Positions 28,218 through 28,612 of a stretch of 64,000 nucleotides of DNA are shown here, in pieces. The stretch is from NCBI GenBank assembly GCA_013141415.1, contig JABFQY010000005.1, forward strand, positions 186,001-250,000, written 5' to 3'. Source of the stretch: Kiritimatiellaceae bacterium (lineage in GTDB: Bacteria > Verrucomicrobiota > Kiritimatiellia > Kiritimatiellales > Tichowtungiaceae). The notes beneath the pieces were generated by a model. That model was not told the DNA's origin. It worked only from the letters and a program-made list of their open reading frames with translations, and searched no databases. A program made the position numbers and the translations under genes. Each line of letters begins with the position of its first letter. The stretch's first letter is position 1.

Positions 28218-28242
28218 GCCCCGGTACTGCCGGGGCTTTTTT
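28218..28242 (+). terminator. Rho-independent terminator of the small basic protein gene
   Basis: GCCCCGG-TACTG-CCGGGGC forms a perfect 7-bp GC stem with a 5-nt loop followed by six T residues. Confidence 0.93.
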
Positions 28243-28297
28243 ATGGGATCCACTAATCTACTAATGAATCTAGCGTGGCACAGCCGCAACCAAAGAG

Positions 28298-28550
28298 TTT
28301 TTACCACCCGCTTCGCTAGAGGGACCTCCGAGGGGGGCAGAGGGGAAGTTCAGAAATCAGAAGTAAGATGGAATAAACGGTGCCCCATAGTTTCGGGGCA
28401 GCCCTGCTGGCACAGGGCTTGATTCGGAGCAGAGATCGCAAGTAAAAACGAGCTTTCACTTGCGATCTCTGCTCCAAATCAGTTCCGTTTATTGAGAGAA
28501 GCTCTCCGACTTACTCCGAAGTTTGCTCTAGCGAAGCGGGTGGTGAAAAA
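28298..28550. mobile_element. MITE-like 253-bp nested palindrome
   Basis: The ends TTTTTACCACCCGCTTCGCT (plus AGAG) and its complement with one extra G form terminal inverted repeats of 24 and 25 bp. Inside, further pairs follow in order: AGTAAG/CTTACT, AATAAACGG/CCGTTTATT, then a perfect 18-bp stem at 28426-28443 and 28458-28475 with a 14-nt loop. Two small hairpins (GCCCC/GGGGC and GCCCTG/CAGGGC) branch from the left arm. No protein of useful size is encoded. It fills most of the gap between the small basic protein gene and the rluB-like gene, and is best explained as a non-autonomous mobile element. No target duplication is obvious. Confidence 0.65.
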
Positions 28551-28612
28551 ATACTCATTAAGTTAATTTTGTATAATTTAGTGCCGATTAGTGAAAATCA
28601 GTGGTTAGAAAT

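Follow-up and report, generated by a model that had tools for sequence, protein, structure and literature searches.

The palindrome at positions 28298-28550 of the 64,000-nucleotide stretch of DNA analysed here (the window) is best explained as a non-autonomous, MITE/REPIN-like mobile element, the ends of which appear to be the terminal inverted repeats of a class of very small elements built around a GxxExxY gene. Judging from sequence comparison, we give this reading a probability of roughly 0.6. That the feature is a non-coding palindrome that has moved is well supported, and the hypothesis of GxxExxY as its candidate mobiliser has good circumstantial evidence in the sequences compared. The element has more structure than ordinary MITEs do, and its matching ends suggest a widespread, little-described kind of mobile DNA.

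Architecture of the element

The element lies in a Kiritimatiellales-type genome, between the terminator of a gene for a small basic protein (sbp) and a RluB-type gene. Folding of 28280-28570 gives -137 kcal/mol, against -84.0 +/- 5.3 for shuffled sequences (z -9.9; 0 of 200 shuffles as stable), so the palindrome noticed in the original prediction is real. The terminal inverted repeats of 24-25 bp claimed there are also present: the outer arms (28298-28330 and 28517-28549) are 33 nt long and 85% complementary, and their outermost 24 nt (28298-28321 and 28526-28549) are near-perfect. The inner arms (28420-28447 and 28454-28481) include the perfect 18-bp stem that had been described (28426-28443/28458-28475). 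The pairs do not, however, make up the single nested series that was proposed with it, as helices P2 (28381-28386/28395-28400), P3 (28401-28406/28413-28418) and P4 branch off within helix P1 (28372-28380/28485-28493). Among the open reading frames of 28298-28550 none is convincing, in line with the claim that no protein is encoded, while a CAGAAAT/CAGAAGT heptamer repeat that had been pointed out inside the palindrome was not found to recur in the element family. The palindrome was also considered as an intrinsic terminator and rejected: whichever strand is read, an A run comes after the arms, and the true terminator is upstream (28219-28244).

Comparison of about 30 copies separates the element into three nested hairpin layers: A (ATACGRAAT..., of which the window copy has the right half only), with ends ATACGRAATYAAYYTRAT; B, with the 19-bp end ACCACCCGCTTCGCTAGAG and the general form ACCACCCGCTNCGCTAGAG, mismatches falling mostly at the marked N; and C, a 123-bp core. 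The variable slot begins at the sbp terminator (GGCCCCGGTACTGCCGGGGCTTTTTT, + strand), which all 13 genomes compared have at this place, in the same or a closely similar form. The left terminal inverted repeat of B (28298-28321, + strand) consists of TTTTT and the 19-mer (28303-28321), found exactly elsewhere in the same genome; it is followed by the inner left arm (28322-28370, + strand; GGACCTCCGAGGGGGGCAGAGG..., with imperfect AGAG repeats), which is seen again in the B-only copies of relatives. Core C (28371-28493, + strand; AATAAACGG...CCGTTTATT) is a four-helix module with hairpins P2 and P3 and a long P4, scoring 137 bits with model R1 and showing covariation over 36 copies. The inner right arm of B (28494-28525, + strand; GAGAGAAGCTCTCCGACTTACTCCGAAGTTTG) is recognised from the fold and from copy comparison, and the right terminal inverted repeat (28526-28549, - strand; CTCTAGCGAAGCGGGTGGT at 28526-28544, then GAAAA) pairs with the left one and likewise recurs in the genome. 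The palindrome does lie within the limits originally given, 28298-28550, but the right end of the element is at 28574, since conserved layer A goes on (right half AATACTCATTAAGTTAATTTTGTAT, 28550-28574, - strand); the left partner of this half (ATACGGAATCAATCTGATT...), missing from the window copy, is present at G000:C5:366992 in the same genome. A separate short repeat (...TTAGTGCCGATTAGTGAAAATCAGTGGTTAGAAAT, 28575-28612, + strand) lies outside the element, just before the RluB-type gene, and a similar repeat occupies the same place in genomes G003 and G007.

Copies and empty sites

The suggestion of a non-autonomous transposable element is borne out by its multiple copies, by an element-free orthologous site and by a gene-bearing version with identical ends (see below). 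The element is not a single copy lacking an empty site. A second full copy is found in the same genome at C5:367031-367306 (91% identity), along with about five further copies that are degenerate or half: a degenerate one at C3:34628-34810, short ones at C5:335456-335647 and C5:153931-154046, and half copies at C3:340600 and C2:252443. Beyond this genome, matches to the element were found in 25 of 58 related genomes. The sbp-rluB spacer is 423 bp long in the window as against 55-193 bp, element-free, in 12 of the 12 relatives with the same gene order, and the shortest of these spacers are little beyond the terminator.

Several relatives carry palindromes of other families in the sbp-rluB slot, which marks it as a place of turnover. 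Other palindrome families (AACAGAAGGAAACGAAGG, CCACGAATCAACGAATG and TTAGTGNNNATTAGTGG) occur in the same spacers of different species (window 28575-28612; L412, L413 and L414), and certain spacer slots behave as if attracting palindromes. The gap between dapA and a radical SAM gene was tried as the empty site of a mini copy and set aside, as relatives hold unrelated palindromes there. Target duplications, which the original prediction had advised looking for, could be read at none of the copies; none is seen next to about 12 A-type ends, and the orthologous slots hold other palindromes. The borders of the element are fuzzy, layer A being shortened or lost in places.

The layers also occur in other combinations. 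B without C is common, in copies of roughly 75-160 bp whose arm interiors vary while the pairing is kept; A lies directly around C once, on the left side (G003:C65); and C is also found without B, flanked by other hairpins. The B-end 19-mer occurs exactly in 120 stretches of a genome contig collection, in records labelled Kiritimatiellota, Lentisphaerae, Verrucomicrobia, Chlamydiae, Alpha- and Deltaproteobacteria and Chthonomonadaceae, many of which are MAGs, so that single labels may be wrong. The plasmid and phage collections gave no DNA match to the element, and a literature search for the repeat sequence or its family returned nothing relevant. At gathering score, Rfam models matched only tRNAs in the window, and the palindrome itself gave weak chance matches to microRNAs.

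Association with GxxExxY genes

GxxExxY proteins (TIGR04256/PF13366) belong to the PD-(D/E)XK nuclease superfamily. They keep the residues D68, E78, K80, Q92 and Y96, which make up the PD-(D/E)XK-QxxxY pattern (D...ExK...QxxxY), and a weak match to Cas4 agrees with the assignment; no solved structure was found by sequence. In L256, a locus of an uncultured, Verrucomicrobia-labelled MAG that is probably from the class of the window's organism, the gene is enclosed by the 19-bp ends of the element (ACCACCCGCTTCGCTAGAG - GxxExxY - CTCTAGCGAAGCGGGTGGT) with nothing else between them. This is the one case seen of exact B ends around a GxxExxY gene, and the same MAG holds gene-less copies of 73, 110, 156 and 85 bp. 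GxxExxY also adjoins B-C palindromes on both sides in three further loci (L344, L346 and L355). Core C is less firmly tied to GxxExxY than the B ends are, and within the approximately 100 kb read of the window's own genome there is no GxxExxY gene.

Flanking inverted repeats of similar design were seen around 7 of 9 plasmid and viral GxxExxY genes (4 of 6 plasmid, 3 of 3 viral), the threshold being the 95th percentile of 551 control genes. These nine genes were drawn without regard to repeats, whereas the B and C loci were partly selected for B or C. For the viral cases slightly longer flanks were used, but their scores of 21-26 lie above the 99th percentile (13.5). The arms of the plasmid and viral genes are built of short direct repeats, and the genes lie between co-directional genes, for example radA and its neighbour. 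A Bacteroides finegoldii GxxExxY gene has a flanking inverted repeat matching at 27 of 30 bases. The arms of one viral-contig gene (L433:1-1500 flank; CGGAATAAACGGAATAAACGGAA) share GGAATAAACGG with helix P1 of core C, which may be chance, and on a Sphingomonas plasmid (L427) a GxxExxY gene with a left arm only (CACGCGAAGGCGCGAGGACGCGAAG) cleanly occupies the interval between fabD and fabG. The literature passage seen that names the family does not treat GxxExxY as a mobile element.

S23-type four-helix-bundle genes are also flanked by inverted arms of short direct repeats, of a sequence other than B (for example TTGGTGCTTGGTTCTTGGTGC / GCACCAAGCACCAAG), at L373:7402-7794, L346:7483-7857, L377:8893-9246 and L374:13600-13986; 5 of 8 such genes lie above the control 95th percentile for inverted repeats. 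Given these repeats, GxxExxY may be a passenger, and the combination of arms with a small ORF may be more general.

Conservation of pairing in core C

A core C model made from 15 copies matches 14 of 43 genomes of the order. In an alignment of 36 copies, 37 of 43 pairs have changes on both sides, with 230 compensatory cells, where shuffles yield 68 +/- 8 and sliding the pairing yields 45-69; a first, structure-free alignment gave 51 against 18. Within the helices, G.U and A.C stand at 74:65 (17:14 pair by pair), whereas tRNA stems of the same loci, a small control, give 11:1. The alignment model leans towards G.U, which makes the core C result conservative. Since G.U is in effect not commoner than A.C, the pairing looks to be maintained as Watson-Crick pairing at the DNA level and not at the RNA level. 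Counts of this kind offer a simple and general way to separate DNA-level from RNA-level conservation of pairing.

Some core C copies (L353:3256-3373, L343, L348 and L358) have an upstream ops/JUMPstart-like stretch, GTAGCRGTAGCAT, plus hairpin loops of TAATC and GATTA; such a leader was dismissed as a general feature of the core, as it lies upstream of few copies, mainly in G003. Almost all genomes of the order have an RfaH-like NusG paralogue (G000:C2:288945-289226, L374 and counterparts), which in the loci read mostly follows a winged-helix-type gene. A cassette-like layout is seen in L345 (G001:C1), where three core C copies of the same orientation take turns with small toxin-antitoxin-like genes. 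Integron attC sites were tried as an explanation for such same-orientation arrays and rejected, the ends not fitting RYYYAAC/GTTRRRY by eye.

Alternative explanations

Very strong conservation of pairing would also be expected if core C were a structured RNA, such as an element for antitermination or mRNA stability in polysaccharide operons, with the palindrome as its extended stem. Core copies do lie in sugar-nucleotide and glycosyltransferase operons more often than B-only copies, with epimerases at 7 of 57 neighbours as against 2 of 122, and the RfaH-like paralogue heads the sugar-polymer clusters in the loci read. At about 15 of 19 loci the core runs in the direction of its co-directional flanking genes (two-sided p ~0.02, by hand; L060 also has a reversed copy), a bias that could stem from lagging-strand insertion or from an RNA role. 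Copies that neighbour each other in a cluster are not independent observations. Eight copies have an upstream loop TAATC (TAATT in one) and a downstream loop GATTA, which could kiss. The window copy, however, is outside polysaccharide operons and has no flanking loops, no Rfam family was matched, and G.U does not rise above A.C despite a model that favours it. An RNA element is, on balance, unlikely.

The remaining readings concern how the DNA came to be repeated. Bacterial MITEs such as MITEAba12 are short, non-coding and multi-copy, with terminal inverted repeats (PMC6382973), and the element shares all of these properties as well as empty orthologous sites. It would then be expected to derive from a DDE-transposase insertion sequence and to be mobilised in trans with target duplication, but no insertion sequence with its ends (ACCACCCGC or ATACGGAAT) was found as a parent, no target duplication was read, and its multi-hairpin core and arm interiors that vary while pairing is kept are unlike ordinary MITEs. 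No recurrent transposase family was found among 122 genes flanking B copies, and a transposase within single-arm loci was likewise discarded, none being recurrent; a classical MITE is improbable. REPINs are extragenic paired palindromes, predicted to form single-stranded DNA hairpins with compensatory changes in the spacer, and the sequences on either side of a single gene are the presumed origin of their non-autonomous copies (Bertels and Rainey 2011, PMC3116915). The window element is likewise an extragenic inverted doublet that forms a hairpin with compensatory changes, and Y1-transposase genes are present in 14 of 14 genomes of the genus. In contrast to REPINs, its modules are nested, its arms are longer (19 bp plus inner repeats) and its proposed partner gene is GxxExxY (PD-(D/E)XK) instead of a HUH/Y1 transposase. 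None of 30 Y1 loci shows a core match or has a B arm in the surrounding 1.5 kb or so, so that mobilisation by a Y1 (RAYT) transposase is very unlikely. Static inverted repeats, kept perfect only by template switching during replication and with neither mobility nor function, are highly improbable too: arm-to-arm correction does predict DNA-level compensation with no preference for G.U, but without movement at some time there would be neither scattered homologous copies nor empty orthologous sites.

A proposed gene-bearing class of palindromes

The non-autonomous palindrome favoured here is related by its 19-bp ends to the GxxExxY gene that they enclose in L256. Apart from its two arms, a coding member of the class would have nothing but a short GxxExxY gene; the window copy lacks this gene and has the 123-bp four-helix DNA module of core C at its centre. 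The arms, when single-stranded, may fold into hairpins or cruciforms, and a trans-acting factor, most likely the GxxExxY nuclease, may recognise this structured DNA. Copies would thereby be moved or copied into intergenic spacers, where they are presumably tolerated, and Watson-Crick complementarity of the stems may be kept by selection for DNA hairpins or by arm-to-arm template correction.

A comparable layout is known from the intervening sequence (IVS) with an S23 ORF in Coxiella 23S rRNA, a small, mobile-looking stem-loop with inverted terminal repeats, some members of which have one small ORF in the loop (PMC4990558). The S23 genes with inverted arms in the loci studied recall this layout (PMC4990558). 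The element differs from it in lying between protein genes and not in an rRNA helix, in that the gene of its proposed class is GxxExxY (the arms of the S23 genes here differ in sequence) and in pairing that is conserved at the DNA level.

More broadly, we tentatively propose, at somewhat less than even odds, that GxxExxY proteins are the mobility nucleases of widespread minimal elements, which comprise two short-repeat arms and a single gene of about 125 codons and have intergenic sites as their targets. Gene-less forms derived from these elements, travelling as single-stranded DNA in a folded state, would then account for many of the common ACCACAGAG-type palindromes between genes of environmental bacteria. 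Palindromes of this type are present in records of many phyla, and no assigned cause was found for them in the literature; linking them to a single small nuclease family supplies a candidate mobiliser that can be tested. If true, this role of GxxExxY would account for a protein family that lacks an explanation, and the enzymes known to move DNA would gain a further nuclease class.
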